Shown here: in pieces, positions 1-22,999 of the stretch | Position numbering within the stretch: position 1 is the first letter of the stretch | Layout: the number at the start of each line of letters is the position of its first letter | Virus record (IMG/VR): IMGVR_UViG_3300020451_000657 | Location: 1 to 25,379 of that record | Length of the DNA stretch: 25,379 nt | From: a virus | Reading direction: 5' to 3' (one strand) | The notes under the pieces: model-generated | The model's database searches: none | Told to the model about the DNA's origin: nothing | The model's input: the letters and a program-made list of their open reading frames with translations, nothing else | Position numbers and translations under genes: made by a program

Positions 1-3000
1 GATTCTAATATTGTTGGACTTGCTGCAAGTGCTTTAGAATATTCTACTGGATATGGATCAACTGTTCTTCCAAGTGAATGTTTTGTTGTTAAATCTAATA
101 ATAATCAATTCTTTATTTCTACATCAATTACTGATGCTAGAATTGGTAAAGGAGTTACTTTTGCACAGGATAAGGGTCAAGGTAACCTTCACAAGTTTAC
201 AATGGATAAGAGAGATTCTAAGTCTATGATCTCTATTAGTGGTCTTGTACAGAAACCTTTATCACATACATCCATAACATATGAGTTAGATGTTGGTGTT
301 AATGGTTTTGTTACTTGTTTTGCTTTGAGTGGATTAAGTACAATAAGATCTGGAGATTTACTCAGAATTGATGATGAGTATAGTATTGTTGAAACAGTTG
401 GTTTTGGTAGTACAACTACAGGACCTATTACTGGTATTGGAACTTGGAGTCTTGTTGAAATAGAAAGAGGAACAGTTGGTAGTGCAGCAACAGTACACTC
501 TGCTGGAGCAACTGCGAGAATCTATAGAGGTGCTTTCCAGATAGTTGATAGTGATGTATATTTTACAGAAGCACCTCTCGGTGGTGACTTGGGTATGATT
601 GACCCAAGCAATCTTCCTTACCCTAGAGCATCATTTGGTGGAAGAACTTACTTAAGACAAGACTATGATACTAACCAAATATTTGATGATAATTCAGATG
701 AGTTTGATGGTTTAGAAAATATATTCCCATTAACATCTACAGGTGTTGCTGTAACTGGTATTGGTTCAACTGGTGGTAACGGAGTTCTGTTTATTAACAG
801 TATGTTCCAAGCACCATTTGGTGAAAACAATGAAGGTGTTGCAAACTTCAAGATTATTGAACAAACTCTTGGTGGTATTGCTAGTGTTAACTATACAGGT
901 ATTACTTCGTTTGGATTTACGGATCTAATAATTGATGAAGATGATGTTAACCAAAATCAACTACCTAGAGGTGGCATCATAGTTTCTGTTGCATCTACAC
1001 CAGGTCAAGGTTATGCTCCATTCAAAGGTGCTAAGGTTCAGGTAACTACTGGTAAAGATGGTACCATTACAGGCATTACTGGTATATCAACAACTAGTGA
1101 TTTTATAGACATTGAAAGTGTTGATTATGATAAGACAACTGGATTTGCAACTGTATCTACTGCAAAAGTACATAGATTTGGAGTTGAAGATTTTGCTAAG
1201 TTAGTTGGTTTAGAATTTACTTGTTCTGATTACATATCGGGAATAACAACTCTTGGTATTACATCATTCGTATATGATCATCTTGTTGGTATTGCTACAA
1301 TAATTACAGACTCTACACATGGATTTACTGATCCAAATCTAGTAGGTATAGTAACTAATGGATTGACCTTTACTTGTGATATGGATGGTTATAGAACTAA
1401 TCACACATATCCAAGATCTACAGATCCTGCAAATAACAAATTCTTAGAAGTTAGAAATGTAACTAGAGATGAATTTGATGTAAATGTTGGTATATCAACT
1501 CAGGTGAGATATACACCTGTAGATGCGATTTATGATGCTGTTGCTGGTATTATGACAGTGACTATTGGATCACATAATATCATGTCTGGAACTAGTGTCA
1601 AGATTGATCAAGAATCCATCAATTTCCAGTGTGCGATGGATGGTCTTTCTACTACTAAGTCATATCCTAGAACAACTGATCCATATTTTGACAGAGCAAT
1701 TTCAGTTGCATCTACCACTGCAACAGGTATTGCTATAACTGTGGGAACTTCTCCTATCGTTAATTATAGTATTACTACTGCAACTTACAATCCATCAACA
1801 GGTATTGTGACTGCTACTATTGGACAACACCCTCTAAAAGATGGAACTTCTATTAAGTTAAAAGAAGGTTCTCTAATCTTTAGATGTGAAACAGATAATT
1901 ATATTTCAACTCATACATATCCACGCAATATTATTGATACTCAGACTATTAACGGTGCTGAATATGATGCTACTGCTGGTATTATGACAGTTACTGTAAT
2001 ACCTGGTGGTCGTTTAATACATGATGGAGATTTTGTAAGATTTGATAACGATTCTATTAGATTTACTTGTGATATGGATGGTGGAACATCTACTAAATCT
2101 TATCCAAGATCTACTGATCCTTATAGTGGTAAATGGGTACCAATTACAGGTATAGGAACTACTTCATTTGCAGTTAATGTGGGTAAATCACCTATACAAC
2201 CTTTTGCTATCTCTAGTGCTATCTACGATCCTACTGCTGGTATTGTAACAGTGAGTATACCTGATCATCAATTCATGACTGGTACTAGTATAAGAATATC
2301 TCCTGAATCATTAGCATTTAGATGCGGTCTTGACACATACCAGAGTATACATTACTATCCAAGGTCAACTGATACTGTTGGTTATAATACTGCAGTCTCT
2401 ATTGCTTCTACTACAGTAAGCACTATTTCATTCCAGATACTTCCAACTCAACCATCGAGTAATGTATCAACTCATCATCATGTTCCAAATGATAAGTTAT
2501 CACCAATCAATGCAACATACGATTCTATTGTTGGTATTATGACTGTTACAGTCAATAATCATGGACTTTCAAATGGAGATTATGTGAAGTTTGATGATGG
2601 GTCTGTTAACTTTACATGTACTAGAGATAATAATCAAAAAGTTTGTGGATATCCTAGACCTAAAGATCCTTATCATAATACATGGGTTAAAGTTTCTAAT
2701 GTAACTACTAATACATTCAGAACTAATGGTATGAAGTCATATGATCATGCTACACATACTTTTGTTTCTGGTACACCTAACAGTATTACTAGATCAGTAA
2801 TCGTAGGTGGTGGTGCATATAATCACACATTCGTCAGTGCAGGTGTCGGTAGTATGGATCAAAAGCGTGATAGAACATTTGATCAACCAGTTAAAATTAC
2901 TGCTGGATATACTTTAGATACTGCAGAAGATATTGTTTATGATCCTGTTGCTGGTATTATGACAGTAACTGCTGCTGCTCATGGAATGATGAACGGCGAT

Positions 3001-5658
3001 TATGTTCTTATCGAAAATAATTCAATAAAACTTGAATGTTCACAGGACAACTATGTTACACCTCATCTATATCCAAGGATTACCGATCCAATTAGCGGTG
3101 ATTGGGTAGCAGTTGCAAGTACAACAGTTAACTCATTTGCTATAGATGTTGGTAAGACTAATACTGGTGATCAATATGTTCATAGATTTGCTGGTGCGGT
3201 AGAGAATGGTATTAGAAAACAGAATGGAACTGTTACTTTCCAAGCAGGTATTTCAACTGATACTACTGAACATCGTTATGATATAATGGCAGGTCATGAG
3301 GCATCTAATGCAATTATTAGTGGTGGAAACTATGCCCATACTTTTGCTAGTGCATCAACTGGAGCGATTAGAACTGGTGGTGGATTTAATCATAGACTTG
3401 TAAGTGCTGCTTCTAGCACTCTTTATATTGATTCTTGGACAGGTGCTGCTTTGACTGTATCTAATGCAGTATATAATCCTGAGACTGGTATTGTTAGGTT
3501 TACTGCTAAGAATCATGGATTGGTTGCTCCAGAAAGTTTGAAACTAAGAGGTATCGGTGTTACTTGTGCATATGGTACAAAGACTTATCCAACAGGAGAA
3601 TTTGGTTATCACTTTAAAGTTAGATCTGTAGGAACTTCAACATCATTTGAAACATTCGTTGGATTCTCTACTGTACAGCATGACTATACTGGTGGTGGAG
3701 TGGTACAAGTTGGTGTTACAAGTAATCTATTCCCAAGTTTTGATGAGGCGTATCCTATTTCAGGTATTGTTTCTGCTCGTACATTTGAAGTAAATGTCGG
3801 ACCTAATACAATCGGACATACTTATGTGAAAGGTGGTACGGTTGCTGAATGGTATCCTTTATCTTATGGTTCTGGATATAGAACTGGATTAGGAACTATT
3901 GGTATTGGAATATCATCTCCAACTAAGGGAGTGAATGCTGAACTAACTGCTATAGTTGGTGCTGGTGGATCTTTGATATTCAGTATTGGTGCTGGTGGAA
4001 CTGGATACACTGGTGAATATGATTCTGTCTTTGCACCTGAACCAAATGGCGAAAACTTGTCTATAGTTGGAGTATCTAGAATAGGTGGTGGAACAGAAAC
4101 TGGTGTTGGTTGTTCTGTTAGTGTTCAAATTTCTGGTGTTAGCACAACTACTGGTATTGGATCAACTTTAGCTGAAGTTTCTGAATGGGAGTTTAGTAAG
4201 AAAGGATATGGATTTAAGCGTGGAGATGTATTTACTGTTGCTGGTCTTTCTACAGATCCTAATGCAGGTGATAACTTTAGAAACTTTGAATTAGAAGTTG
4301 TAGAAGTATTTTCTGATCAAGTTGCTTCTTGGCAGTTTGGTAATATTGATTATATTGATAATATAAAACCAAATCAAAATGGAAATAACAAGAGATTCCC
4401 ACTATACTATCAATCACAGTTAGTCAGTTTTGAAATTGATAGAAACGATCAAGATTCTAGTGAAATTGATTTATCTACTGTTTTATTAGTATTCATTAAC
4501 GGAGTAGTTCAAGAACCAAATATCAATTACATATTTACTGGTGGTTCTGTAATTGAATTCTCTAGTGCTCCAACTGTAAATGATAATGTTGTTATATTCT
4601 TCTATAGGGGAACAATAGGTCAAGATAGTTTTATCTTTGATATCAATGAGACTATTAAAACTGGAGACACTCTAAGATTAGATAAGAGTGCCGAAATGCA
4701 ATTTAATAGAGTTAACAAAGATCAGTCAAACTTTGCTCAGATTGATGATAGAATTATTAAAAGGATTGATAGTGCTTCTACAGTAGAAACTCCATTCTAT
4801 CAAGGTCCAGGTGTCAGTAATGATAATTTCAAACCTATGACATGGACTAAGCAAAAAGGAGATAGAGTTATTGATGGTTCTTTAGTTTCTAAAGCAAGAG
4901 ATTCATATGTATCTCAAATAAATCCTAATGCAAATATTATTGGAGTTCTTACTTCAACAGATAATTTTGTATTTGTTGATAGTACTGCTAACTTTAAAGA
5001 TACTGATAATCAATTAACAGAATCATTTGGATTACTTGCTATTGCTCCTGTTGGATTTGGTACAACAGCAGCTACTGGAGTTAACTTTGAGAATATATCT
5101 GGTGTTGAACCATTAGTTGCTGATGTTGCTGGATATATAGGTGTGGTTACTGGTATAGGAACTACTGCTGGTATTGGTACTGATTTAGCACTTGAGATTT
5201 TGGTTGATAACCAAGAATATGTTAATGCAGGTAATGATGCAACAGGATTCTCAACAAACTATCCATTCAAATTATATGGAACAGGTATCAATACAGCAGG
5301 AATTGCAATAACGAGTATTGATACACATGACACTGATATAGTTTCTATCAGCACACATTATGGAGATAATATTTACTATGCGAGTGCCATTAGTTATCGT
5401 AATGGTGGTCGTCAAGGTATTATCACTGCTAACATAGCATCATATACTGACACTAGTGATATGGTTGGCGTAGGATCCACTGGATTTGCTTACGCTCACT
5501 TCACTTGGGGAAGATTTGGTAATGTAACCAGAGCTGGTGCTCCTATTGAATTAGATGTTAAAGGACTATCTTATGATAGTCAACTTAGCAATTTCCCTCT
5601 AGTTATTAGAAGGGGCGTGGGACATAGAGGAACTGGAGCTCTGCCCAAACTTCTATAA
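1..5658 (+). CDS. Giant tail/baseplate structural protein, 5'-partial, in the gp7 position
   Basis: The frame is open from base 1, so the ATG at 202 is internal; at least 1885 residues are present and the N-terminus lies outside the window. I infer a virion role from its position directly upstream of gp8, where T4 encodes gp7, and from resemblance to large structural proteins of marine T4-like phages; I see no clear similarity to T4 gp7 itself. Visible parts (base positions) are an N-terminal region with a QLPRGG motif (about 955-990), an array of Cys/His/YPR repeats (1123-3670), His-rich GGxYxHxF units, several GxGY segments (about 984-1070 and 3850-4235), and a C-terminal region with NFKPMTWTKQKGDR, ending in FPLVIRRGVGHRGTGALPK. 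The C-terminal part looks like the most family-conserved section. The stop TAA lies inside a late-promoter box for the next gene. The virion role is fairly sure; the exact baseplate role is inferred. Confidence 0.8.
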   Translation, partial: DSNIVGLAASALEYSTGYGSTVLPSECFVVKSNNNQFFISTSITDARIGKGVTFAQDKGQGNLHKFTMDKRDSKSMISISGLVQKPLSHTSITYELDVGVNGFVTCFALSGLSTIRSGDLLRIDDEYSIVETVGFGSTTTGPITGIGTWSLVEIERGTVGSAATVHSAGATARIYRGAFQIVDSDVYFTEAPLGGDLGMIDPSNLPYPRASFGGRTYLRQDYDTNQIFDDNSDEFDGLENIFPLTSTGVAVTGIGSTGGNGVLFINSMFQAPFGENNEGVANFKIIEQTLGGIASVNYTGITSFGFTDLIIDEDDVNQNQLPRGGIIVSVASTPGQGYAPFKGAKVQVTTGKDGTITGITGISTTSDFIDIESVDYDKTTGFATVSTAKVHRFGVEDFAKLVGLEFTCSDYISGITTLGITSFVYDHLVGIATIITDSTHGFTDPNLVGIVTNGLTFTCDMDGYRTNHTYPRSTDPANNKFLEVRNVTRDEFDVNVGISTQVRYTPVDAIYDAVAGIMTVTIGSHNIMSGTSVKIDQESINFQCAMDGLSTTKSYPRTTDPYFDRAISVASTTATGIAITVGTSPIVNYSITTATYNPSTGIVTATIGQHPLKDGTSIKLKEGSLIFRCETDNYISTHTYPRNIIDTQTINGAEYDATAGIMTVTVIPGGRLIHDGDFVRFDNDSIRFTCDMDGGTSTKSYPRSTDPYSGKWVPITGIGTTSFAVNVGKSPIQPFAISSAIYDPTAGIVTVSIPDHQFMTGTSIRISPESLAFRCGLDTYQSIHYYPRSTDTVGYNTAVSIASTTVSTISFQILPTQPSSNVSTHHHVPNDKLSPINATYDSIVGIMTVTVNNHGLSNGDYVKFDDGSVNFTCTRDNNQKVCGYPRPKDPYHNTWVKVSNVTTNTFRTNGMKSYDHATHTFVSGTPNSITRSVIVGGGAYNHTFVSAGVGSMDQKRDRTFDQPVKITAGYTLDTAEDIVYDPVAGIMTVTAAAHGMMNGDYVLIENNSIKLECSQDNYVTPHLYPRITDPISGDWVAVASTTVNSFAIDVGKTNTGDQYVHRFAGAVENGIRKQNGTVTFQAGISTDTTEHRYDIMAGHEASNAIISGGNYAHTFASASTGAIRTGGGFNHRLVSAASSTLYIDSWTGAALTVSNAVYNPETGIVRFTAKNHGLVAPESLKLRGIGVTCAYGTKTYPTGEFGYHFKVRSVGTSTSFETFVGFSTVQHDYTGGGVVQVGVTSNLFPSFDEAYPISGIVSARTFEVNVGPNTIGHTYVKGGTVAEWYPLSYGSGYRTGLGTIGIGISSPTKGVNAELTAIVGAGGSLIFSIGAGGTGYTGEYDSVFAPEPNGENLSIVGVSRIGGGTETGVGCSVSVQISGVSTTTGIGSTLAEVSEWEFSKKGYGFKRGDVFTVAGLSTDPNAGDNFRNFELEVVEVFSDQVASWQFGNIDYIDNIKPNQNGNNKRFPLYYQSQLVSFEIDRNDQDSSEIDLSTVLLVFINGVVQEPNINYIFTGGSVIEFSSAPTVNDNVVIFFYRGTIGQDSFIFDINETIKTGDTLRLDKSAEMQFNRVNKDQSNFAQIDDRIIKRIDSASTVETPFYQGPGVSNDNFKPMTWTKQKGDRVIDGSLVSKARDSYVSQINPNANIIGVLTSTDNFVFVDSTANFKDTDNQLTESFGLLAIAPVGFGTTAATGVNFENISGVEPLVADVAGYIGVVTGIGTTAGIGTDLALEILVDNQEYVNAGNDATGFSTNYPFKLYGTGINTAGIAITSIDTHDTDIVSISTHYGDNIYYASAISYRNGGRQGIITANIASYTDTSDMVGVGSTGFAYAHFTWGRFGNVTRAGAPIELDVKGLSYDSQLSNFPLVIRRGVGHRGTGALPKLL
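1123..3670 (+). repeat. Array of about nine Cys/His/YPR domains within the giant protein
   Basis: Units of roughly 50-100 residues begin near 1123, 1267, 1528, 1786, 1963, 2221, 2515, 2935 and 3466. Typical units open with YDxxAGIMTVT, continue with H-x18-C, then x8 and [HKC]-x-YPRxTDP, and close with a hydrophobic FxVxVG stretch. The H-x18-C spacing is exact in six units. The 1963 unit lacks the aligned His, and the first and last units have x16 and lack YPR. The position before x-YPR is His in three full units, Lys in two and Cys in one. Spacing between the last units is filled by His-rich segments. The likely role is structural beta-domains in the tail; the function is not known to me. Confidence 0.85.
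2737..3427 (+). repeat. His-rich GGxYxHxF segments between YPR domains
   Basis: Short imperfect repeats appear around 2740 (ATHTFVSG), 2809 (GGGAYNHTFVSAGVGS), 3172 (QYVHRFAGA), 3323 (GGNYAHTFASASTGAI) and 3376 (GGGFNHRLVSAASSTL). The common pattern is G-G-x-[YF]-x-H-x-[FL]-[VA]-S-A. Three occur before the 2935 YPR unit ends and two after it. I do not recognise the family. Confidence 0.6.
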
Positions 5659-5694: not shown

Positions 5695-7266
5695 ATGGCC
5701 GCAATTATCACAGATCAATTTAGAATAATAAATGCTAATAATTTCGTTGACTCCGTAATTAGTGGTGATAACTCCTATTATACTTTTTTAGGTCTGGCTA
5801 ATCCAACAGAAACTGGATACGGAAGAACGAGTACATGGAACAGTACAACCGTTGAACCACCATCACCAACAGATAGTATTAGTTACATAGATCATGTATA
5901 TGATACTATGATGTTTGGTAGAAAAGTTTTACCTGGTGATGTTCGTAGATTAGTAAGAAAAACTCAATGGACAAAAGGTACATCATATGATATGTTTCGT
6001 CATGATTATGATGTAACCAATAGATCATTAGTTTCTAACTCTAGTAGACTATATTCTGCAAACTATTATGTAATCAATAAAGACTTTAGAGTTTATATTT
6101 GTATTGATAATGGATCTGCAGGTATTACATCTACTGCAGGTGCATCCCTTGATGAACCTACATTTACTGATCTTGAGCCATCTGCTGCTGGTGTTAGTGG
6201 TGATGGTTATTTGTGGAAGTATCTATTTACAGTTCCTCCTGCTGACATTGTAAAGTTTGACTCTACTGAGTATGTTGCTGTTCCTAACGAATGGTCAACA
6301 AGCACTGAGAATGAGATTAAAGTGGTTCGAGATAATGGAGACTCTACAGTAAATAATAATCAAATTAAAGTTGTTTCTATTGATGGTCAGGGTGAGGGTT
6401 ATTCTTTCCTTGCATCTCCGATAGAAGTTGATATACTAGGTGATGGAACTGGGGGTAAAGTCCGAGTTCAGACCAATACCAATGGTCAAATAATTTATGC
6501 AAAAGTTACTGCTGGAGGGCAAGGTTACAGTTTTGGTAGGGTTGATCTTTCTTCTATTAATGGTAGTGCTACAAAGTTTGCTAAATTAACACCTATCATT
6601 CCTCCTTCTAGAGGTCATGGATTTGATCTTTATAAAGAATTGGGAACTGACAAAGTTTTAATTTACACTAGATTTGATAATTCTACATATGACTTTATTT
6701 CTGATACAATATTCTCTCAAGTAGGAGTTGTTAAAAATCCTGTTGCTTCAGGTGCTGGATCTACTTCTGTTCTTAATACATCAGAATTTTCAGCAGCTAA
6801 CGCTATGAAATTTACAGGAGATCTAACACAGACTCTTGTAGTTGGTGCAGAAATAACACAAAATATACCTGGCATTGGAACTGCCAGAGGTTATGTTTCT
6901 TCATATGATGTGAATACAACTATAATCAAATATTTCCAAGATAGAAATCTTTATCTTCATCCTTCATTGTATGATCAAACTGATAATATAGGTGTTGGTG
7001 GAGATGCAAAAGTTCTCGATTTTACTGCTGCTGGTGATGCTGTCATCTCTAGTGGATTTAGTGTAAACATAGATGGAGGTTTCTCAGGAATCTCAACAAC
7101 TACACCATCTGGTAAAGTTGTAGATCTTGGAGTGCAGTTTACAAGTGGTCTCGCTGGACCTGAGATAAATAAAAGAACAGGTGAGATTATTTACCTTGAT
7201 AATAGACCATCTATTACAAGAAATGAACGCCAAAAAGAAGACATCAAAATCGTATTAGAATTCTAA
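5695..7266 (+). CDS. 8: Baseplate wedge protein gp8
   Basis: This 523-residue protein resembles T4 gp8, a structural subunit of the hexagonal baseplate wedge. PPSPTDSI near residue 55 matches T4 PPYPTDSV, and GDGYLWKYLFTVPP near residue 170 matches T4 GDGYVWEYLFEIPP. The C-terminus (TGEIIYLDNRPSITRNERQ, then KEDIKIVLEF) has the look of baseplate-wedge ends. It is much longer than T4 gp8 (334 residues). At least part of the excess is a GxGY module at residues about 226-290 (DGQGEGYSF, GGQGYSFGR). A further segment near residues 365-405 resembles a VGAEITQ-type module seen in neighbouring proteins. The ATG is chosen because the TATAAATA box lies 33 bases upstream; there is no strong Shine-Dalgarno. 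The next gene follows after 4 bases. Confidence 0.9.
   Translation: MAAIITDQFRIINANNFVDSVISGDNSYYTFLGLANPTETGYGRTSTWNSTTVEPPSPTDSISYIDHVYDTMMFGRKVLPGDVRRLVRKTQWTKGTSYDMFRHDYDVTNRSLVSNSSRLYSANYYVINKDFRVYICIDNGSAGITSTAGASLDEPTFTDLEPSAAGVSGDGYLWKYLFTVPPADIVKFDSTEYVAVPNEWSTSTENEIKVVRDNGDSTVNNNQIKVVSIDGQGEGYSFLASPIEVDILGDGTGGKVRVQTNTNGQIIYAKVTAGGQGYSFGRVDLSSINGSATKFAKLTPIIPPSRGHGFDLYKELGTDKVLIYTRFDNSTYDFISDTIFSQVGVVKNPVASGAGSTSVLNTSEFSAANAMKFTGDLTQTLVVGAEITQNIPGIGTARGYVSSYDVNTTIIKYFQDRNLYLHPSLYDQTDNIGVGGDAKVLDFTAAGDAVISSGFSVNIDGGFSGISTTTPSGKVVDLGVQFTSGLAGPEINKRTGEIIYLDNRPSITRNERQKEDIKIVLEF
6370..6560 (+). repeat. GxGY module inside gp8
   Basis: Two units, DGQGEGYSFLASPIEVDI and TAGGQGYSFGRVDL, are separated by about 30 residues. 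They fit the pattern [GN]xGY-x(3-6)-P/V-x-[VI]-x-[IVL] that recurs in other virion proteins of the window. They fall after the gp8-conserved GDGYLWKYLF region and help explain why this gp8 is longer than T4 gp8. Confidence 0.6.
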
Positions 7267-7270
7267 GAAG

Positions 7271-10200
7271 ATGCCACAACAGACCAATCTTAATGTAAGT
7301 CCCTATTACGACGATTTTGATCCTAGTAAAGGTTATCATCGTGTCTTATTCAAACCTGGTTTCCCAGTTCAGGCTAGGGAACTATCTACTTTGCAATCTA
7401 TTCTGCAAAATCAGATAGAAACTTATGGTAGTCATATATTTAAAGAAGGTGCGTTAGTAATACCTGGTTCAACAACATTTGATGGAAATTATTTTGCTGT
7501 TCAAGTTAATCCAACACATTTAGGTACTGATGTTTCTGTATATGCTAATAATATAATAGGAAAAAGATTTAAAGGACAAAATAGCGGAGTTACTGCAAAG
7601 GTAATTAATTATATTACTGCTACAGAATCTGATCAAGATTACGATACTTTTTATGTAAAATATATTGATTCGTCTACTGATGGAGATTTCTCATTCTTCC
7701 AAGATGGAGAAGTCCTTGTTGCAGAAGAACCAGTAACTTACGGTAATACAACAATCAATATTGGTGGAACTCTTGCATCTACAATTGCATTAAACGCATG
7801 TACTACAGGTTCTGCTTGTTCTATTGATGAGGGTGTATACTTTATCAGAGGAAATTTTGTAAAAGTAAATAAGCAAACAATTATATTAGATCAGTATAAT
7901 CAATCCCCATCTTATAGGGTTGGACTTCAAGTTTTAGAAAACACTGTTAGTGCAAAAGGAGATGAGACTTTATATGATAATGCTAAAGGATTTTCTAACT
8001 TTGCTGCACCAGGTGCAGATAGATTACAAATAACACTTGTTTTAACTAAGAAAAGTATTAATGATTTTGATGATACTGATTTTGTAGAAATACTTAGAAT
8101 TAAAGAAGGTGCAGTATTTTCAATAGGTAAAGATGTAAGTGAATATAATAAAATAAGAGATTATTTTGCTAAAAGGACTTTTGATGAGTCTGGAAATTAT
8201 ACTGTTAATCCATTTGGTATTAATATTGCTGAGTCTCTTAATGATCGTCTTGGAAATGATGGTGTATATTTTAAAGGGCAAACTACATTTGATAGTAACG
8301 ATCCATCAGAAGATCTTGCATGTTTAAAGGTAACTGCTGGTAAAGCATACATCTTTGGATATGATGTTGATGTAACTGCTCCAACTATAATTGATTTTGA
8401 GAAACCAAGATCATTTGAAACAGTTGAAAATCAAGCATTTAATTTTGAAATGGGGAATAGATTCCTCGTTAACAATGTAAGTGGTATTACTACACTTACT
8501 GAAAGAATAGAATTGATGGGAGGTCCTCTTGGTGGAACTGCGACTGCTGCTGGTACTGCTGAAAAAATTGGTGATGCAAAAGTATATGGATTCTCTTTAA
8601 GAGATGCTGCATACGAAAATAACGGAACTGATTGGAACTTATATCTTTATGATATTCAAACATATACATCATTAGAATTAAATGATAATGTAACTGCATC
8701 AGAACTTAATCAGTCTGGATTTATTGTCGGTAAAGAAAGTGGTGCTGAAGGATATGCAGTTTCTGCAGGTGCTGGATCTAGTAGTATACAAGTTACTCAG
8801 ACTGCAGGAACATTCAGGAGAGGAGAAAAAATTAGTATTAATGGTGATGAAACAGTATCACGAACTATTGAAAAAGTAACTTCATATGGTATTAATGATG
8901 TATATGAGTTTGCTCAGAGTGGAAATAGTTTCACTGCTAGTAAAAAATTAAATCAAGTAATTCCAGTTGGTTTTGGTGCTGGTCAATTTAATATTGCTGC
9001 TGATGGTACAGTTACTTCACCAAGAGCAGATAGTTTCTTAATTTTCAAACCTGGCGATATATTTTCTTACGGTGCTGCTAATGATACTTCTGGTTCCTCT
9101 CTTAATGTTCCTACTCGTAATGTGGTTCTAACGGTTGCTACTGATGGTCAATCGATGAAAGTCGGTACAATGACAACAGTTTCCGATGTGTTTGATGGTG
9201 GAGTAAAAGCATTTGATGGTATTGGATACAGAGGTGTACAGGATGTTTCTTTACTAAATTCATCTTTAATTTCTAGAATTCCAGACATAGGAGTTAATAA
9301 TGTAGATTTTAGTAATTCTACTTTACTCCTTAGTTCTCAAGTACTTAATGAAAGCAGTAATGCATTAGGTCAATTAGTTCTCCCAATAACTTCAGTTGAT
9401 CTTGACGATGTAAGTTTTGTTGCTTTTGATCAAGAAAGATATTCTGTTGCATATTCAAATGGAACTATTCAATCTATTACTGAAGATCAAATTCAAATAA
9501 CTGGAACTAGTATTACAATATTTGGATTAACTCCAAGTCAGAGTAATATTAGAGTAAATGTAACTGTTCAAAAATCAAATATTAAAAACAAAGTTAAAGA
9601 ATTTAAGAGATGTCAACAAACAGAAATTACTAGATCTGCAAATCAAAGATCTGGAACTAATGCTGGCACCAGTATTAATGATGGATTGAATCATAGTGCT
9701 CTGTATGGTATTAGAGTTCAAGATAGAGAAATATGTCTAAACCATCCAGACGCTACTGATATTATTGCAGTCTATGAGTCATTAGATACTAATACACCTG
9801 TTCTTGATAAATTAACCTTTACATCTACTGATGATATTTTTACCGAAGCAATTATTGGTGAAAAAATTACAGGATCAGATAGTAAAGCAATTGCGAGAGT
9901 AATCTCTATTGATTCTGGTAATAATCAAATTAGTATTGTTTATCTTACTGATAATAAATTTGTATTATTAGAGACATTAGAATTTGACGAATCATCTGCT
10001 GTTGCTACAGTTCAAGCAACAACACCTGGTAAGTATAATAATATTACTAGCAGTTATATGCTAGACAAAGGACAAAAAGATCAGTATTATGATTATTCTA
10101 AAATTGTTAGAAATGGTGGAGCATTTGTTCCTCATAGAAAACTATTAATTATCTACAACAGATATGATGTTCCTAGTGGTGACACTGGAGATATATTTAC

Positions 10201-15542: not shown

Positions 15543-15755
15543 ATGCCATCTCTCAGAATAGGTACAGGCAATCAAGTAAAAGTAATCGCTAGTGGATCTC
15601 TTGGTGGAGGTTCTGGTGGTCGCTTGTCTTTACTGTCTGATGTTAACTCAAGTAATCTTCAAGATGGAAGTTTGCTTGTATATGATGCTGCGACAAGTAA
15701 TTTCGTAGCCACTAAGAATTTCCCTGCAGCAATCATTGATGGAGGTATCTACTAG
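15543..15755 (+). CDS. Small fibre-associated protein, 70 residues
   Basis: The protein begins MPSLRIGTGNQVKVIASG, has a Gly/Ser stretch, and then LSLLSDVNSSNLQDGSLLVY followed by DAATSNFVATKNF. The segment LSDVxxxxLxxGxxLxYDxxTxxxV is a motif common at the junctions of phage fibre proteins. It lies 2 bases after the previous gene and its stop TAG shares its last base with the GTG start of the fibre gene. The 3' end contains the fibre gene's Shine-Dalgarno. I infer that it is a fibre connector or tip-associated small protein; the biochemical role is unknown. Confidence 0.75.
   Translation: MPSLRIGTGNQVKVIASGSLGGGSGGRLSLLSDVNSSNLQDGSLLVYDAATSNFVATKNFPAAIIDGGIY
15741..15746 (+). promoter_or_regulatory. 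Strong Shine-Dalgarno GGAGGT that fixes a GTG start
   Basis: GGAGGT lies 8 bases before the GTG at 15755, an ideal distance, and inside the 3' end of the preceding gene. It supports the non-ATG start of the fibre gene, whose first residues (SATLLLKRTLGTSPP) look like a natural fibre N-terminus. Confidence 0.85.
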
Positions 15756-18700
15756 TGTCAGCTACCCTATTATTAAAACGAACTCTAGGAACTTCACCTC
15801 CTAATATTGCACCAGTCGGTACTGGTGTATCTTTTGGTGAACTTGTTTATACTTACGATACCAGCGATGTTGGTGCTGGTAAATCCTATAAGAAATTATA
15901 TATTGGTAACCCTGCAGGTCCTACAGCAGCTCCAATTGTAATCGGTGGTGAATATTATACTAGTCTAATACCAGAAAGTCCTGCCAATTACGGTAATAGG
16001 GAGGCATCTAAAGCACTTATCTTAGATTCAAATGCTAAGGTAAAATCTTGGTCTGTAGTAACTGATTTCCATAACGCTGGAGTTGGTACTAACCAAGGAG
16101 ATTTTTATGTTGGTGGTAACTTAAATGTTACTGGAGATTTAGTATATGACGAAGTAACTGGTAGAAATATTAATATAACAGGTGTTGGTACAATTGCCAC
16201 CATCTTCAATACTAAAGCAACCATTATTGATGGTGCAATTGATAATCTGTATACAGTATCAGGACTTGTTACCACTCTGACAGGTACAAGTGCTAATTAC
16301 ACTCAGGTCAATGTAGGACATGCTCTTACTGCTAATAATGTACAAATTACTGGTATAACTACACTTACCAATAATCTTGACTTCTCTAGAAATTTAATTA
16401 AGATTGGTCGTGAGACTGCATCTGGTATCAGTAGTGCTGATGGATCAATATTCATTGGTGACTATGCTGCCACTGGTATGGGTCAATCGACTTCTAATAG
16501 AAGAAACATAGCGATTGGTGCCAGTGCATTACAATTTGGTGGTGTTGGAAATAATGCTGATGAATTAGAATCTAACATCGTTATGGGTAACTTTGCAGGT
16601 TATAGACTGCAAGGTACTAAAAACTTAATGGTTGGTGATAAAGTAGGTTTTGCTTTATCATCTAGTGGTAACGATGAAAACATTGCTTTGGGTAATCAGG
16701 CAATGTATGGTGACACTTTCCCTGTTGTGGATGGTGTTACTTTAAGTATTACAGTTGGTCAACAAACTGCTATTGCTAATCATGACGAATCTACTGATGT
16801 AACAGAAACAAGTGGATCTGGTCAAGGTTTGATAGTAAGACTTCAAACTGGTGGTACTGGTTTAGTTACACTAATTGATGTAATATCACCAGGCGACGGA
16901 TATGTTTTAGGTGACACATTTACCATACCATTTGGATTCCAAACTCTTACTGGTTCTGTTACTAGTATTAATGGTCGTTTCCTAAGTGGTGGTACTGGTG
17001 CTAGACAACAAAGTAAAAACATTGCCATAGGTCCATATTCATTATTCAGTGTAGATGGTAGTAGAAATATTGCGATTGGTTATTCTGCTGGTGATGTTAC
17101 GACTGGTAGTGGTAATATTATAATTGGATATGAACGAGATGTTGCAATTGCTAATAGTGATAATCAACTTACTATTGGTAGTTCACTTATCAACTGGATT
17201 GATGGTAATCAACTAGGTTATGTTGGAATAGGAACTACAAGACCATTCGGATTACTCGATGCTGGTGGTGTATTCATTGTAGATAAAGGAACAGGTAATA
17301 CTGTTATTTCTGGTGTTACAACTGTACCAACTCTTGATGTAGATAATCTTGGTATAGAGGACATCAAAGTAACTGCTGGTTTAGCAACTGACTTTGCAAT
17401 TACAAATGCTAAGATTCAATCTGGTATCATCACAGATACTGTTGGTACTGCTGCGACAATTACTAATGTAGATTTTGTAAATGCAGATATTTTAGCAGCT
17501 AAGATAACAGCAGGTATCGTCACAGACCTTGTTGGTACTGGTGCTACAATAGCAATATTTGATACCGAGACTGCTGATCTTTCTGATGTAAAAATTACAA
17601 CTGGTGTCATAACATCTTTAGTTGGTACATACGCAACTATCACTACATTCGATGCTGATGATGCAGATATAAATGTACTAAAAACTGTAACTGGTGTTGT
17701 AACATCTCTTACTGGTTTTGGTGTAACTTACAATACAGCAGACTTTGAGTTTGTTGATGCTTCTGATATCAAGATTACAACTGGTCTAGTAACATCTTTA
17801 GTTGGTACATATGTAACCTTCCAAGATGCTGACTTCCAAGATGATGTTCGTGTTGGTGGTGCTCTTACAGTTGTTGGTGATCTTACAGTTCAGGGTAATA
17901 CAAGTTTTGTTCAGAGTTCTGTAATTCAGGTTACTGATAAGAACATTGAACTTGGTTTTAGTTCCACTGGTAATCATGCAGATGCTACTGCAGATAATGG
18001 TGGTATTATTCTTAAGGGTACTACCGATAAAACTATTCAATATAATACAGCAAGAGAAGCATGGGAGTCTAATCTTAAGTGGAATCCTACTACTGACAAT
18101 ACTCTTGATATTGGTGAACCTACTGTACAGTGGAAAGATATTTACATTAACGGTACTGCACATTTAGATGCTGCAGATATCTTAGATGCTAAAATTACTG
18201 CTGGTATTATCACTGATATTGTTGGTACTCATGCAACTATTACCGTTGCTGATTTTAGTCAGACAGATATAGTTAGTGCAAACATCACTGGTCTTGCTGT
18301 AACTGATATAGTTGGAACTGCTGCGACAATTACCACAATCGATGCAACAGATGGAGATATAGTTAATGCTAAAATTACTGCTGGTGTTGTTACATCATTA
18401 GTAGGTACTTACTCTACAATTGGTGATGTAGATGTTACTTATGATATTAGAGTTGGTGGAGCACTAACAATTACTGGTGATATTGATGCGAACAAAGACT
18501 TAATTGTATCTGGTGTATCTACATTTAATAGTAGACTTGATATTAATGCAAACATAGATGTATCAGGTGTTGGAACAATACCAACTTTTGATACAGAGAC
18601 TGCTGATCTTAAGAATGTTAAAATTACTGCTGGTATCATTACTGATATCGTTGGTACTGCTGCTACAATCACAACTATTGATGCAACAGAAGGTGACATA

Positions 18701-21700
18701 GTTAACGCCAAAATTACTGCTGGTGTTGTTACATCATTAGTTGGTACTTATGCTACTATTACAACTGCACACATTGACACTTTAAGTGTTGATGTTATGT
18801 CTATGGTTGGTGTGGCAGTTACTGATGTAGTTGTTTCCACTGCAGCAACCTTTACAGGTGTTATTGATGTTAATGATGCTGATATTCTGAATGCCAAAAT
18901 CACTACTGGTATTATAACCTCTCTGGTTGGCACCTACGCTACTATTACAAATTTTGATACTGAGACTGCTGATCTTAAGGATGTCAAGATTACTTCTGGT
19001 ATCATTACTGATATTGTTGGTACTGCTGCTACAATCACTACGATTGATGCTGCTAACTTTGATGCAGTCAATGCAAAAATAAACGCTGGTTATATAACTT
19101 CTCTATATGATTCTGGTGGAGTTGTTGGAGTCAATACTCAACATATTTTAAGCACCAATCCTGACGGAACAATTACTTGGCGTGAACCAGCACAAATTGG
19201 TATTGGAACTATTAATCCTGGTATAGATGTATGGTTTGTTGACTCACATGGTGTTGATGATAACGAACCTTCTCGTGGTCGTACAGATGATAGACCATTT
19301 AAAACTATCAAGTACGCTCTATCAAGAATTTCTAATAAGTATCCACATACTTATAATGGTGGAACTGCTACTGATGCAGTTAATGTTCAGAGTGGTGCTG
19401 AGTCTGGTAATCAAAAATCACCTAATGGAGCAACCTACGATGAGCATACTGGAGTATTAGTATTATCATTTGCTTCTGCTCACGGATTATCAACTAACGA
19501 TACAATAACTCTTGATAATAATTCAATATCATTTACATGTACAAAGGATAACAATGCGACTTCACACACTTATCCTCGTGCTACTGATCCTATTGCAGGA
19601 GTAACAACTGCTGTTACTGTAATTAACACTACATCATTTAGTATTAATGTTGGTGTTTCTCCTCTTATCACAGGAGAAAATGAGACATTGAATATTGGTG
19701 GTGGTGTTTATGAAGAAATATTCCCATTATATGTTCCTGCAGGTGTTACAGTTAAAGGTAATGGTCTTCGTGCTACTAAAGTAGTTCCAACTGATGCTAC
19801 TAAGCAAAAGGATGCTTTCTTATTGAATGATAGATCAGTCGTTGAAGACATGACTATTGCTGACATGTTCTTTGATACTGCAAACAATCAAGGTTGGGCA
19901 TTTAGATATGAACCTGGTATTGCTATTACATCAAGATCACCATATGTACAGCGTGTAACTGTATTCAACAAAGGTAGTAATCCAACTGCAACTGACCCAT
20001 ATGGTTATGCATCTGCTGATTCACCACCTTCATCATACATCTCTGGTGGTGGTGCATACATTGATGGATCTGAGGTGCAGTCAGGATCGCTTGAGGCAGC
20101 GATGTTGTTCAATGAGGCAACATTCATTGTTCCTAACAGTCAAGGTGTTGTAATGACTAACGGTGCTCGTGTTGAGTACCTAAACTGTTTTACATATTTT
20201 GCAGCTGAAGCACTTAAGGGTGTATCTGGATCTGCTGGTATTTCATCTACTGGTCAAACTAGATTAAGACTATCAGGCATTACAACAGTTGGTGTTGGTA
20301 ATACTATTACTGTATTTGATACTGATGGATCTACTGGATTAGGTACTGCTGTCGTTGCATCTTATGATGGAACTTACTTAGGTGTAACTGGTAAGCAACT
20401 TGGATTTGAAGTTCTTAATGCTAGGACTGCTAAGTCTATAACATTTAATGATGGTGCTCAGTTAGATACTACTGTTAAGAAATTTGGTAGTGCTGCACTT
20501 AAGTTAGATGGTAGTAATGATTCTATTAGTATTCCTTCTAGTGGAGATATTGGATTTGGAACTAATACAGACTTCACAATTGAATTCTGGGCATACTCAA
20601 ATACAACTGGACTTTCTAGTGCAACTCTATTTGACTTAAGAGATAATGGATCTGATACTAACGGTCTAAGTCTTGCATATCGTGCTGCTGGTGAAGTTGA
20701 TTTAAGAGTTGGTACAACTACTGCTATCACTGGATCTGGTGCTGGTATTGCTACTGGAGTTTGGAAACACTTTGCAGTCGCAAGAGATGGTACAGATACA
20801 AGATTATTCGTTGATGGTACACAAAGAGGTATTAAAACTTCTGATACTACCGATTATGGTGCATCTAAAGGTATTGTATTTGGTGCAGACTTTGATGGAG
20901 CAAGCAATAATGTAACAGGTTGGATTGATGAAGTAAGAATCGAAAGAGGTGTTGCTAAGTATACAGCAAACTTTACTGCTCCTACTACTGCACCAACAGG
21001 AGATAAAGATACAGTACTACTTCTCCACTTTGATGGTTCTACTGGTATTAAGACCACTACTGATGACACAATCCGTAATCAGGATATTCGTATCACACAA
21101 GCAGGTGGTGGAATTGGAACTGCTACTAAGGTGATTCTAGCAGATTATAGTCAGTTTGGTGCTGACATGCGTTCTGTTGGTTGTGCTGTTGAATATGGTC
21201 AGAAGGGTGTTATTGCTGATGGTGATGGTGTTTCACTAAGAATGTTTGCACTCAACTTCAACCATGTTGGTGCTGGTGGTGATATTACTAACGATCCTAA
21301 CCTAGCAATACAAGCAAATGAAGTTACTGAGGTAAACAACGGTGATGTATCTTATGTAAGTATTGACCAGAAAGGAGACTTCAGAGTTGGTGAAGCATTC
21401 TATGTTGACCAAGAAAATGGTACAGTATCATTCTCACAACAAGTAACAAGTCTTCAGGCACTATCTTCACTAGTCATAACTGATGGCACTGATAGTAGTA
21501 CAGTAACACCTACAAGTGGTACATTTGGTAACATCCAGATAGCTGGAAATAACATAGAATCGACTTCAGGAGATATTAACATTGATCCTGCTGGTTCAGG
21601 AGACATCAACATTACTGGTGATGTAAATGTCTTAGGTATCTTAACTGCTACTACTATCCAACTGGATTCATTCCAGAAAGGTGATACTTCTGTTGCTCTT

Positions 21701-22999
21701 ACTGATAGTGGTACTGATGGAACTATCCGTCTTTCTACAGATAATGTAGAAGCAATGCGTGTTGATGCCAATCAGAAAGTTGGTATTGGTACTGCTGCAG
21801 TTAGAGATAGATTAGATGTTCTAGACACTGCTAGATTTGAAAATATCAATGTAACTGGTGTTGGTACATTTGCTGGTGCTCTTAATGTTGCTGGTATTAT
21901 AACTTCTACTGGCGGAGACATCAACGGAAACTTAGATGTATCTGGTATTATAGATTCTACTGGTATTGGCGTAACAGGAAACTTAGATGTATCTGGTGTT
22001 GGTACTATTACAACTTTCGATACAGAGACTGCAGATCTTAAAACTGTTAAGATAACATCTGGTATTGCAACTGACTTGGTTGGTACTGCTGCAACTATTA
22101 CTACTATCGATGTTACAGAGGGTGATATAGTTAACGCCAAAATAAATGCTGGTGTTATAACTTCTCTTACTCTAACAGATAGTCAGGTTAGTGGTATTGT
22201 AACTTATGCAGATAATGCTGCTGCACACTTTGGAGATGATGGAGATCTTAAGATCTACCATAACCCATCCTTCGGATCTTACATTGATGATTCAGGAACT
22301 GGTGCTCTTGCAATTCGTTCTAATGAGATTCAGTTACAGAAGTATACTGGTGAAACTCTTGCTAACTTTACTGCTGATGGTTCGGTTAAATTATTCCATA
22401 ATAACGGTCCTAGATTAGAAACTCTAGGTGCTGGTGTTAGTGTTAGTGGTGAATTACAAACTGGACAATTATTAGTTGCTACTGATGCTGTTGTTAGTGC
22501 AGGAATGACTGTTGTTGGAATCACAACTTTCAACGATGATGTATTCATTGCAGGAAACTTAAATATTGTCGGTGACTTAGTATATGATGAAACAACTTCT
22601 AGAAATCTTAATGTTACTGGCATAGCAACAATTGCTGCCATGATCATTACTGGAGTAACAACCTCCAAGAATATTCAAATTGGTACTGCTACTTCTACTA
22701 CTAAGATTACTACTACAAGTGGAAAATTAGTTCTTGAATCTTTTGAGGATCAAGTAGATGTTAATGATAACCTACAGGTTGTAGGATATGGTACATTTAG
22801 AGATGGTTTATATTATCCAGATTCCGCAAATGGTATTGGATATAGTGGTCCTAATGGAATCGCATACTTCGACGCAACAGGTAAGATTGTTAGTGGCCTA
22901 AGTACTGTTGGATTCTTGACTGTTTCTGAGTATGTTCTTACCGTGAACTCAGCTGGAAACCCAACATGGTCTGAATCGATTGATGGAGGATTCTTCTAA
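15755..22999 (+). CDS. Giant mosaic tail fibre/tailspike-like protein
   Basis: This 2414-residue protein starts at GTG with a strong Shine-Dalgarno. In order: an N-terminal fibre attachment-like region (TLLLKRTLGTSPP, 1-110); NLNVTGDLVYDE (about 119-150); YadA-head-like NIAIG repeats with a GDGY insertion (229-478); 30-residue repeats (551-700, 811-1120); a spike-type entry DSHGVDDNEPSRGRTDDRPF (about 1162); one Cys/His/YPR domain (1226-1306); a beta-helix-like region (1309-1550); a LamG-like lectin domain (about 1560-1763); resumed beta-helix-like sequence (QFGADMRSVGCAVEYGQKG, about 1800-1890); a low-complexity fibre tail with further repeats and FGDDGDLKIYHN; and a second GNLNIVGDLVYDE copy near 2270. 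The probable role is host recognition or surface polysaccharide binding at the tail. I see no catalytic residues and no recognisable C-terminal peptidase or chaperone. It overlaps the gp13 start by one base. Confidence 0.85.
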   Translation: MSATLLLKRTLGTSPPNIAPVGTGVSFGELVYTYDTSDVGAGKSYKKLYIGNPAGPTAAPIVIGGEYYTSLIPESPANYGNREASKALILDSNAKVKSWSVVTDFHNAGVGTNQGDFYVGGNLNVTGDLVYDEVTGRNINITGVGTIATIFNTKATIIDGAIDNLYTVSGLVTTLTGTSANYTQVNVGHALTANNVQITGITTLTNNLDFSRNLIKIGRETASGISSADGSIFIGDYAATGMGQSTSNRRNIAIGASALQFGGVGNNADELESNIVMGNFAGYRLQGTKNLMVGDKVGFALSSSGNDENIALGNQAMYGDTFPVVDGVTLSITVGQQTAIANHDESTDVTETSGSGQGLIVRLQTGGTGLVTLIDVISPGDGYVLGDTFTIPFGFQTLTGSVTSINGRFLSGGTGARQQSKNIAIGPYSLFSVDGSRNIAIGYSAGDVTTGSGNIIIGYERDVAIANSDNQLTIGSSLINWIDGNQLGYVGIGTTRPFGLLDAGGVFIVDKGTGNTVISGVTTVPTLDVDNLGIEDIKVTAGLATDFAITNAKIQSGIITDTVGTAATITNVDFVNADILAAKITAGIVTDLVGTGATIAIFDTETADLSDVKITTGVITSLVGTYATITTFDADDADINVLKTVTGVVTSLTGFGVTYNTADFEFVDASDIKITTGLVTSLVGTYVTFQDADFQDDVRVGGALTVVGDLTVQGNTSFVQSSVIQVTDKNIELGFSSTGNHADATADNGGIILKGTTDKTIQYNTAREAWESNLKWNPTTDNTLDIGEPTVQWKDIYINGTAHLDAADILDAKITAGIITDIVGTHATITVADFSQTDIVSANITGLAVTDIVGTAATITTIDATDGDIVNAKITAGVVTSLVGTYSTIGDVDVTYDIRVGGALTITGDIDANKDLIVSGVSTFNSRLDINANIDVSGVGTIPTFDTETADLKNVKITAGIITDIVGTAATITTIDATEGDIVNAKITAGVVTSLVGTYATITTAHIDTLSVDVMSMVGVAVTDVVVSTAATFTGVIDVNDADILNAKITTGIITSLVGTYATITNFDTETADLKDVKITSGIITDIVGTAATITTIDAANFDAVNAKINAGYITSLYDSGGVVGVNTQHILSTNPDGTITWREPAQIGIGTINPGIDVWFVDSHGVDDNEPSRGRTDDRPFKTIKYALSRISNKYPHTYNGGTATDAVNVQSGAESGNQKSPNGATYDEHTGVLVLSFASAHGLSTNDTITLDNNSISFTCTKDNNATSHTYPRATDPIAGVTTAVTVINTTSFSINVGVSPLITGENETLNIGGGVYEEIFPLYVPAGVTVKGNGLRATKVVPTDATKQKDAFLLNDRSVVEDMTIADMFFDTANNQGWAFRYEPGIAITSRSPYVQRVTVFNKGSNPTATDPYGYASADSPPSSYISGGGAYIDGSEVQSGSLEAAMLFNEATFIVPNSQGVVMTNGARVEYLNCFTYFAAEALKGVSGSAGISSTGQTRLRLSGITTVGVGNTITVFDTDGSTGLGTAVVASYDGTYLGVTGKQLGFEVLNARTAKSITFNDGAQLDTTVKKFGSAALKLDGSNDSISIPSSGDIGFGTNTDFTIEFWAYSNTTGLSSATLFDLRDNGSDTNGLSLAYRAAGEVDLRVGTTTAITGSGAGIATGVWKHFAVARDGTDTRLFVDGTQRGIKTSDTTDYGASKGIVFGADFDGASNNVTGWIDEVRIERGVAKYTANFTAPTTAPTGDKDTVLLLHFDGSTGIKTTTDDTIRNQDIRITQAGGGIGTATKVILADYSQFGADMRSVGCAVEYGQKGVIADGDGVSLRMFALNFNHVGAGGDITNDPNLAIQANEVTEVNNGDVSYVSIDQKGDFRVGEAFYVDQENGTVSFSQQVTSLQALSSLVITDGTDSSTVTPTSGTFGNIQIAGNNIESTSGDINIDPAGSGDINITGDVNVLGILTATTIQLDSFQKGDTSVALTDSGTDGTIRLSTDNVEAMRVDANQKVGIGTAAVRDRLDVLDTARFENINVTGVGTFAGALNVAGIITSTGGDINGNLDVSGIIDSTGIGVTGNLDVSGVGTITTFDTETADLKTVKITSGIATDLVGTAATITTIDVTEGDIVNAKINAGVITSLTLTDSQVSGIVTYADNAAAHFGDDGDLKIYHNPSFGSYIDDSGTGALAIRSNEIQLQKYTGETLANFTADGSVKLFHNNGPRLETLGAGVSVSGELQTGQLLVATDAVVSAGMTVVGITTFNDDVFIAGNLNIVGDLVYDETTSRNLNVTGIATIAAMIITGVTTSKNIQIGTATSTTKITTTSGKLVLESFEDQVDVNDNLQVVGYGTFRDGLYYPDSANGIGYSGPNGIAYFDATGKIVSGLSTVGFLTVSEYVLTVNSAGNPTWSESIDGGFF
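16109..16204 (+). repeat. N-terminal copy of a duplicated fibre module
   Basis: VGGNLNVTGDLVYDEVTGRN, followed by INITGVGTIATI, is closely matched by the segment at 22547-22642 near the other end of the same protein. The two copies lie about 6.4 kb apart in direct orientation. Confidence 0.85.
16439..17186 (+). repeat. YadA-head-like NIAIG repeats in the fibre
   Basis: Short units resemble the head repeats of trimeric autotransporter adhesins: GSIFIGDYAA, RNIAIGASAL, SNIVMGNFAG, ENIALGNQAM, KNIAIGPYSL, RNIAIGYSAG and GNIIIGYERD. In YadA these form a left-handed parallel beta-roll trimer. A GDGY-containing stretch (about 16730-17000) interrupts them. The trimeric fold here is inferred. Confidence 0.7.
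17360..17854 (+). repeat. 30-residue (90-base) tandem repeats, block 1
   Basis: A partial unit is followed by five full 30-codon units starting at 17405, 17495, 17585, 17675 and 17765. The core is xxKITxGxxT[DS]xVGTxATIT, about ten variable residues, then DADI or a similar string. The last unit flows into DVRVGGALTVVGD, which recurs as DIRVGGALTITGD after block 2. Confidence 0.9.
18185..19114 (+). repeat. 30-residue tandem repeats, blocks 2 and 3
   Basis: Units start at 18185, 18275 and 18365. A linker with RVGGALTITGD, DVSGVGTI and FDTETADL follows, then units at 18614, 18704, 18794 (32 residues), 18890, 18980 and a partial one at 19070. Two flavours alternate in block 3: TDIVGTAAT and TSLVGTYAT. 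At the DNA level 18371-18402 and 18710-18741 are identical over 32 bases. Confidence 0.9.
19430..19671 (+). repeat. Single Cys/His/YPR domain in the fibre
   Basis: ATYDEHTGVLVL, AHGLSTNDTI, SFTCTKDNNATSHTYPRATD and SFSINVGVSPL reproduce the domain arrayed in the giant protein at 1123-3670, including exact H-x18-C-x8-H-x-YPR spacing. It lies between the spike-entry motif and the beta-helix-like region. Confidence 0.9.
20431..21045 (+). other. LamG/concanavalin-like lectin domain inside the fibre
   Basis: KKFGSAALKLDGSNDSISIP, FTIEFWAYSN, GVWKHFAVARDGTDTRLFVD and GWIDEVRIERGVAKYTANF are characteristic of LamG-like jellyroll domains in phage and marine proteins. VLLLHFDG, usually the first strand of such a domain, occurs here after it. 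Flanking sequence on both sides looks like one interrupted beta-helix. The likely role is glycan binding. Confidence 0.8.
22016..22180 (+). repeat. 30-residue repeat, block 4
   Basis: FDTETADL, one full unit (22043-22132, TDLVGTAAT flavour) and a partial unit repeat the pattern of block 3. The preceding DVSGVGTI is shared with the linker near 18560, so the whole cassette looks copied. Confidence 0.85.
22547..22642 (+). repeat. C-terminal copy of a duplicated fibre module
   Basis: IAGNLNIVGDLVYDETTSRN, followed by LNVTGIATIAAM, matches the segment at 16109-16204 at most positions, including GDLVYDE and the TSRN/TGRN turn. Confidence 0.85.
22985..22990 (+). promoter_or_regulatory. Shine-Dalgarno GGAGGA for gp13
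   Basis: GGAGGA lies 8 bases before the gp13 ATG at 22999, inside the last codons of the fibre gene, and supports that start. Confidence 0.8.

Follow-up and report, generated by a model that had tools for sequence, protein, structure and literature searches.

Repeat units with a near-invariant cysteine in a gp7-type baseplate protein of a T4-like marine cyanophage

We found that a giant tail protein of a marine cyanophage contains repeat units in which one cysteine is nearly invariant, and that the histidine at a fixed distance before it varies independently of that cysteine. The units lie mainly in the first open reading frame of IMG/VR virus record IMGVR_UViG_3300020451_000657, positions 1 to 25,379 (this whole 25,379-nucleotide stretch is called the window below). 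We lean, without much force, towards the reading that the units would be tandem barrel modules of a baseplate arm, serving as spacer and adhesive, and that the cysteine (Cys36 in unit numbering) would be a structural staple near a His or Lys at position 45.

The window covers part of the genome of a T4-like marine cyanophage. ORF 1-5658, whose frame is open at the left end of the window, encodes the C-terminal part of a baseplate wedge protein of the gp7 type. This identity follows from a profile match, from the gene downstream and from gene order in named isolates. The ORF matches phrog_2885 (baseplate wedge subunit) with E 3e-215 in a profile search, and the gp8 gene adjoins it downstream (PF09215, E 2.9e-16). 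It thus combines a baseplate wedge family with the position before gp8, the two features that mark a T4-like gp7. In P-SSM2 and S-SSM7 a gene named gp7 lies immediately 5' of gp8, and P-SSM4 has gp7 after gp6 and before gp8, with two genes separating it from gp8. These gp7 proteins are long (5195 aa in P-SSM2, 7312 aa in P-SSM4), and a sister contig of the window has a 4885-aa open frame at the gp7 position. The right end of the window encodes a head-tail adaptor (phrog_211) and a relative of a T4 neck protein (PF11649). Three proteins of the window had no NCBIfam match up to E 0.1. The genes that matter here are as follows.

1..5658, + strand: gp7-like baseplate wedge protein, C-terminal part (phrog_2885, gp8 next, named isolates)
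5695..7266, + strand: gp8 baseplate wedge (PF09215, E 2.9e-16)
15755..22999, + strand: fibre-like protein of 2414 aa that contains one unit and a LamG domain

In addition, a 2461-aa protein (7271-14656; DUF4815, E 8.9e-61) contains 12 consecutive prolines with an arginine-rich stretch after them, and the neck-protein relative (23852-25279) has a C-terminal extension of GY-type repeats.

The initial annotation, made from the sequence alone, had described six units with exact H-x18-C spacing in a giant tail protein, and we recovered all six at that place. The full motif, H-x18-C-x8-[HKC]-x-YPR, occurs six times in ORF 1-5658 (His codons at nucleotides 1318, 1573, 1828, 2266, 2560 and 2980) and 0 times in 5000 composition-keeping shuffles of the 1885-aa protein. 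H-x18-C alone was observed 6 times (shuffle mean 0.24, maximum 3) and C-x8-[HKC]-x-YP 7 times (shuffle mean 0.0008, maximum 1), each against 5000 shuffles. The third site, said to be His, Lys or once Cys, reads H, K, H, H, C, H in the six exact units; all three residues are there, although just one of these six has Lys. In a second Lys copy (Cys codon at nucleotide 2068) Arg replaces the His of H-x18-C, and one more unit (Cys at 3565) is of a short-loop form, C-x4-K-T-YPT. Beyond the annotated range of 1123-3670, the fibre-like ORF contains a seventh exact unit (His at 19481). The Arg-for-His unit, the short-loop unit and the unit of the fibre-like ORF all belong to the family. There is also a barrel-like piece with a Cys (at 1222) and no YPR. 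Because Tandem Repeats Finder showed no array in 1-5658, the units are repeats at the protein level only. The units and the related piece are listed here.

1108..1224 (borders approximate), + strand: barrel-like piece with Cys (codon 1222), no YPR, from sequence and Cys inventory
1267..1488, + strand: unit 1, H-x18-C-x8-H-x-YPR
1525..1743, + strand: unit 2, third site Lys
1780..1926, + strand: unit 3, second half missing, Cys-Cys spacing of 61 to unit 4
1957..2181, + strand: unit 4, Arg replacing His, third site Lys
2218..2439, + strand: unit 5, third site His
2512..2727, + strand: unit 6, third site Cys, HGLSNGDYVKF aligning with E1 FCCH (sequence; AF2 model, pLDDT 90.3)
2932..3150, + strand: unit 7, third site His
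3466..3657, + strand: unit 8, short-loop C-x4-K-T-YPT
19430..19648, + strand: lone unit of the fibre-like protein, flanked on either side by other sequence of that protein

The units are not always arranged alike. In 1780-1956 the Cys-Cys spacing of 61 reflects a unit that is missing its last part and runs straight into the next, and spacings of 59 or 61 in place of 85 recur 19 and 27 times when relatives are included. Short repeats of the type [YF]-x-H-[TR]-[FL]-[VA]-S-A are interspersed at 2730-2900 and 3150-3475. The unit of the fibre-like protein, seen in its context (19208-19960), is flanked on both sides and may resemble an inserted module.

The units form a large family in other viruses. 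Four scans of viral contigs, one of which took the best 80 of 346 relatives, and one scan of genome contigs yielded 203 loci, or 204 sources with the window. Of these sources, 193 had a match, and they gave 1181 unique units. Cys36 is Cys in 1155 of 1157 scored units, a count that leans on alignment to a profile in which the Cys is fixed. A check by spacing agrees with the profile counts: H-x18-C is present in 935 and C-x8-[HK]-x-YP in 958 of the 1181 units. Pro48 (1140/1149) and Tyr47 (1123/1153) are likewise highly conserved, and His17 is present in 989 of 1137. Site 45 is His in 807 and Lys in 276 of 1157 units, so that one or the other is found in 1083. Exactly one Cys is present in 1070 of the 1181 units, two or three in 85 and none in 26; where there is a second Cys, its position is scattered over 20 columns.

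With one unit as query, 298 of 50,697 phage records matched at E up to 0.001. Because all 298 are labelled Synechococcus, Prochlorococcus, cyanophage or marine virus, the module looks, by sequence similarity, special to the marine cyanophage group. Domain matches (partial units included) were found in gp7 of P-SSM4 (14), S-SSM7 (15, in the second of two gp7 genes) and P-SSM2 (11); the other genes tested in these three phages (1, 3 and 2, respectively) had none. All 120 representative units matched phrog_1276 (best E 4.5e-22), a family with no attached function and with a profile (325 positions) longer than the unit. One unit, with its Cys kept and Thr at site 45, occurs in SSM1_102 of S-SM1 (T4-GC969). 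PMC3037559 reports T4-GC969 among the proteins detected in purified virions. This places the module in a virion, in a giant protein other than the gp7 of this phage. LamG domains were present in the fibre-like protein and in giant proteins of two relatives.

Searches of the literature on the cyanophage baseplate, repeats, virion proteome and LamG, with subscription journals mostly outside their reach, gave no title on the module among the matches listed. Two unit-carrying giant proteins (L071, aa 2267-2316; L108, aa 843-916) have a weak Pfam match to Phycobilisome protein, below the cut-off (E 7.9e-4 and 3.4e-3, respectively, for the piece alone). Three contigs (L107, L108 and L110) are titled as Dehalococcoidia or Euryarchaeota genomes; since they encode cyanophage units, they are probably viral contigs in wrong bins.

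We compared predicted structures of the unit with known folds. AF2 models were built from alignments of 120 of 195 representatives (single unit) and 80 of 137 pairs, and had a mean pLDDT of 90.3 and pTM of 0.75 for unit 6 and 90.0 and 0.71 for the pair. Foldseek against the PDB gave no E-value below 0.001 for either model; for unit 6 it ranked the LPHT ring 8z5n first (probability 0.85), followed by endosialidases. In a structural second look with VIA, which covers just the chains ranked by Foldseek, ranks 1-38 for unit 6 were all endosialidase barrels or E1 FCCH domains. The five endosialidase entries aligned over 56-57 residues at 2.1-2.5 Å (Z 5.3-5.4), and the 33 FCCH entries, from a few E1 enzymes and including the isolated FCCH domain 2v31, over 57-59 residues (Z 4.3-4.8). 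NADPH oxidase, ATPase and riboflavin synthase barrels came below rank 38. The same two families led for the pair model (Z 5.9-5.7), with riboflavin synthase (rmsd 9.2) and MreC barrels within one Z of the leaders. All of these Z-scores are below 6, and those of FCCH with unit 6 are below the level that is safe on its own. Among predicted viral structures there were 30 matches at E up to 0.001, and the named ones were from Synechococcus phages.

Sequence comparisons pointed to the same two families. PF12195 (End_beta_barrel) and PF16190 (E1_FCCH) were the most-matched Pfam families, in 11 and 8 of 120 units, respectively (best E 0.0014 each). For PF16190, scores of 13.3 bits in the window and 15.2 bits for unit 6 did not reach the gathering score of 29.5 bits; one relative with many units (L071) passes it as a whole protein (34.2 bits), and the best of 80 unit pairs gave E 8.6e-7. 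Unit 6 scored 16.8 bits against PF12195 (E 0.0068; gathering score 35 bits). The initial annotation had looked to a profile match with a characterised domain as evidence against its proposal: a resemblance does exist, but the window units stay below the curated cut-offs. Unit 6 contains HG[LF]-x-x-GD-x-V-x-F, which we take to be typical of E1_FCCH, at Pfam positions 8-25. A 23-aa piece of unit 6, picked after the fold result, matched only two ubiquitin E1 sequences in the PDB (E 1; HGLSNGDYVKF in the unit, HGLENGDFVKF in Uba1), at residues 186-202, which fall within the range aligned by structure (183-242). Uba1 was absent from the PDB matches of whole units and profiles at E up to 10.

Two other PDB matches outrank Uba1 by E-value. 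Profiles matched an iota-carbonic anhydrase (E 2e-4 and 7.6e-5) through three weak stretches (best i-Evalue 2.7 and 5.4), and one L071 unit matched the ice-binding adhesin 4p99 (E 1.3e-7) through four repeats of one weak stretch (each i-Evalue ~0.9). We set both aside, and the sole reason for preferring Uba1 is its agreement with the structural comparison. Because two weak lines, structure and sequence, agree, the models support, but do not settle, a predicted fold that is a small β-barrel of FCCH/endosialidase type.

Both families also differ from the units. FCCH (Uba1/UBA6) is a domain of a eukaryotic intracellular enzyme. We know of no Cys-[HK]-YPR hairpin in E1 FCCH, and found no paper joining E1_FCCH with phage in the literature covered. 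The endosialidase barrel (K1F and phi92; 3ju4, 4hiz) is also part of a phage host-contact protein, but is a single barrel inside an enzyme, unlike the tandem chain of the units.

By analogy with the endosialidase barrel, the units could instead be glycan-binding lectin barrels that recognise host surface sugars. We consider this unlikely, though less so than the other alternatives below. Besides the polysialic-acid-binding barrels in the top structural rows, it could draw on the LamG domains in the fibre-like protein and two relatives, and on weak matches to the carbohydrate-binding family PF14262 in 6 of 120 units (best E 0.015). However, a common fold shows no function: FCCH is alike in fold and has, to our knowledge, no glycan role. 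We located no binding site in the units. The endosialidase barrel itself is one of three polysialic acid sites, according to PMC12632334.

We found that His17 and Cys36 are independent of each other. His17 was absent in 148 of 1137 units, and 146 of those keep Cys36. Half-units that comprise the first hairpin and the HGL turn are found with no Cys hairpin. H-x-hydrophobic was present in 52 of 71 loose half-unit candidates (36 of 50 after removal of near-duplicates); the pattern is loose and its span short, so their low Cys count (4/71) is partly by construction. A profile of the first half found 928 pieces, of which 924 had a Cys at or beside the expected place (881 with YP, 43 without), a number biased towards Cys since the pieces come from loci fetched with whole units; the 4 pieces that have no Cys also have no YP. 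The HGL-x-NGD-x-V motif that contains His17 aligns, with weak scores, with the E1 FCCH barrel, and His17 therefore looks like part of the general fold, not a partner of Cys36. The proposal of a functional H-x18-C pair did not survive these counts, and a metal-binding pair of the two residues is ruled out by their independence.

We also considered whether a His at column 8, found in 40 units, takes the place of His17. All 40 lack His17, but most of the cases listed come from an HTF[VI]SA-like repeat that replaces the usual first hairpin, and the column-8 His may simply be the other repeat's own.

What stood of the suggested metal site, disulfide or other crosslink is the association of Cys36 with the third site. 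We analyzed covariation (DCA) in the 1089 of 1181 units with at least 50 filled columns. Strong pairs were 35-41, 33-44, 30-46, 33-46 and 35-44. The AF2 models have strands at columns 32-36 and 44-47 (pair) or 32-35 and 44-47 (unit 6). The pairs 33-46, 33-44 and 35-44 put 33, 35, 44 and 46 on one face of this hairpin; combined with the modelled strands, they support, without settling, the placement of 34, 36, 43 and 45 on the opposite face, where Cys36 would share a face with residue 45. Mean covariation in registers 76, 79 and 77 was 3.25, 1.84 and 1.58, respectively; register 76 includes two strong pairs (30-46 and 35-41). We chose register 79 because it fits the AF2 strands, although covariation alone gives 76 the higher mean; in register 79, Cys36 and residue 45 would be diagonal neighbours. 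A Cys36-Tyr47 thioether is unlikely, as the two would be four residues apart along the strand in the assumed register. Asp39 couples to 43, 35, 45, 49 and 47, and 49 couples to 52.

As the spacing varies, the Cys36-H/K45 pairing is retained in most cases but not in all. In the common C-x8 class, site 45 is His in 759 and Lys in 196 of 984 units. Three classes have Lys throughout (C-x4, 28/28; C-x10, 15/15; C-x11, 18/18; raw counts with relatives), and the C-x6 class has 15 His and 2 Lys in 18 units. The C-x7 class is the exception, with His or Lys in just 10 of 32.

This pairing might indicate a reactive thiol, a reading we regard as improbable. His or Lys at 45 would lower the pKa of Cys36; the thiol could then form a Lys-Cys bridge of the NOS type, enter a mixed disulfide (with the host or from arm to arm), or act as a redox switch upon release into oxygenated seawater. 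If the Cys were purely structural, Ala, Ser, Thr or Val would be expected in its place now and then, and packing leaves 1155/1157 unexplained; the H/K45 of 1083 of 1157 units, its presence in loop classes x4, x6, x10 and x11, and the lone Cys of 1070 of 1181 units, with which a disulfide would have to leave the unit, also fit a reactive thiol. However, Cys persists in 62 of the 74 units with neither His nor Lys at 45, the C-x7 class mostly has neither, the 43 Cys-containing first-half pieces without YP exist, and the inner-face position that we infer for Cys36 suggests limited exposure. We give slightly less credence still to an extension of this idea, in which Cys36 with H/K45, at up to about 28 per chain, would form a covalent or redox system that hardens or triggers the baseplate extracellularly; its links may be NOS bridges between Lys and Cys, disulfides from arm to arm, or mixed disulfides with the host. 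For most units an intra-unit disulfide was rejected because of the lone Cys; in unit 6, with Cys at the third site, one could form.

The least probable alternative is that each unit binds an ion such as Zn or Fe through His17, Cys36 and His45, with Asp39: Cys36, Asp39 and His45 are near one another in the sequence, and 39 shows weak coupling (2.6 s.d.) to 45, but the eight strongest couplings of His17 omit 36, 39 and 45 (36 being too invariant to couple), His17 is retained alike with Lys45 (241/268) and His45 (673/784), and the His is common to the FCCH-like motif. Joint conservation of the ligands was not seen, as His17 is lost with Cys36 kept and Lys occupies 45 in 276 of 1157 units; the initial annotation had rightly taken the Lys copies as evidence against a simple metal site in each unit. 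The HxH iron sites of T4 gp37-type fibres are also His-bearing repeats in phage tails (PMC11705849, which by citation describes iron-binding HxH sites for cyanophages too), but HxH is found in just 12 of 1181 units and was rejected here. A calcium loop was likewise rejected, the D-x-N-x-D-G look being confined to part of the C-x10 class (15 units).

We therefore return to the reading of the units as barrel modules with a structural Cys. Each unit would be a 75-residue domain, probably a self-folding small β-barrel like the FCCH domain of ubiquitin E1 and the barrel with which phage endosialidases bind polysialic acid. Tandem units, together with half-units, HTFVSA-type repeats and, in some relatives, LamG domains, would make up the outer region of giant virion proteins, gp7-type and others, in T4-like marine cyanophages. 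We infer that the tandem would act as a spacer and probably as an adhesive surface facing the host, because the module occurs in a virion, the endosialidase barrel binds polysialic acid and LamG domains occur in the fibre-like protein and in giant proteins of two relatives. The cyanophage version would be marked by the hairpin C-x8-[HK]-x-YPR-x-x-DP, whose invariant Cys and His or Lys, on the same hairpin face, would hold one end of the barrel together as a structural staple. The His of H-x18-C would be a fold residue with no Cys partner.

T4-like cyanophages of the sea rank among the most common marine viruses, and little is known of how their baseplates reach Synechococcus and Prochlorococcus and hold on to them. 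Our analysis carries a caution: a fixed His-Cys spacing should not be taken for a metal site before checking which residue belongs to the general fold. The small size of the unit should allow its expression alone or in tandem, so that the role of the invariant Cys is directly testable. Our results suggest that the barrel repeats of cyanophages carry a near-invariant Cys on an otherwise known-looking β-barrel.
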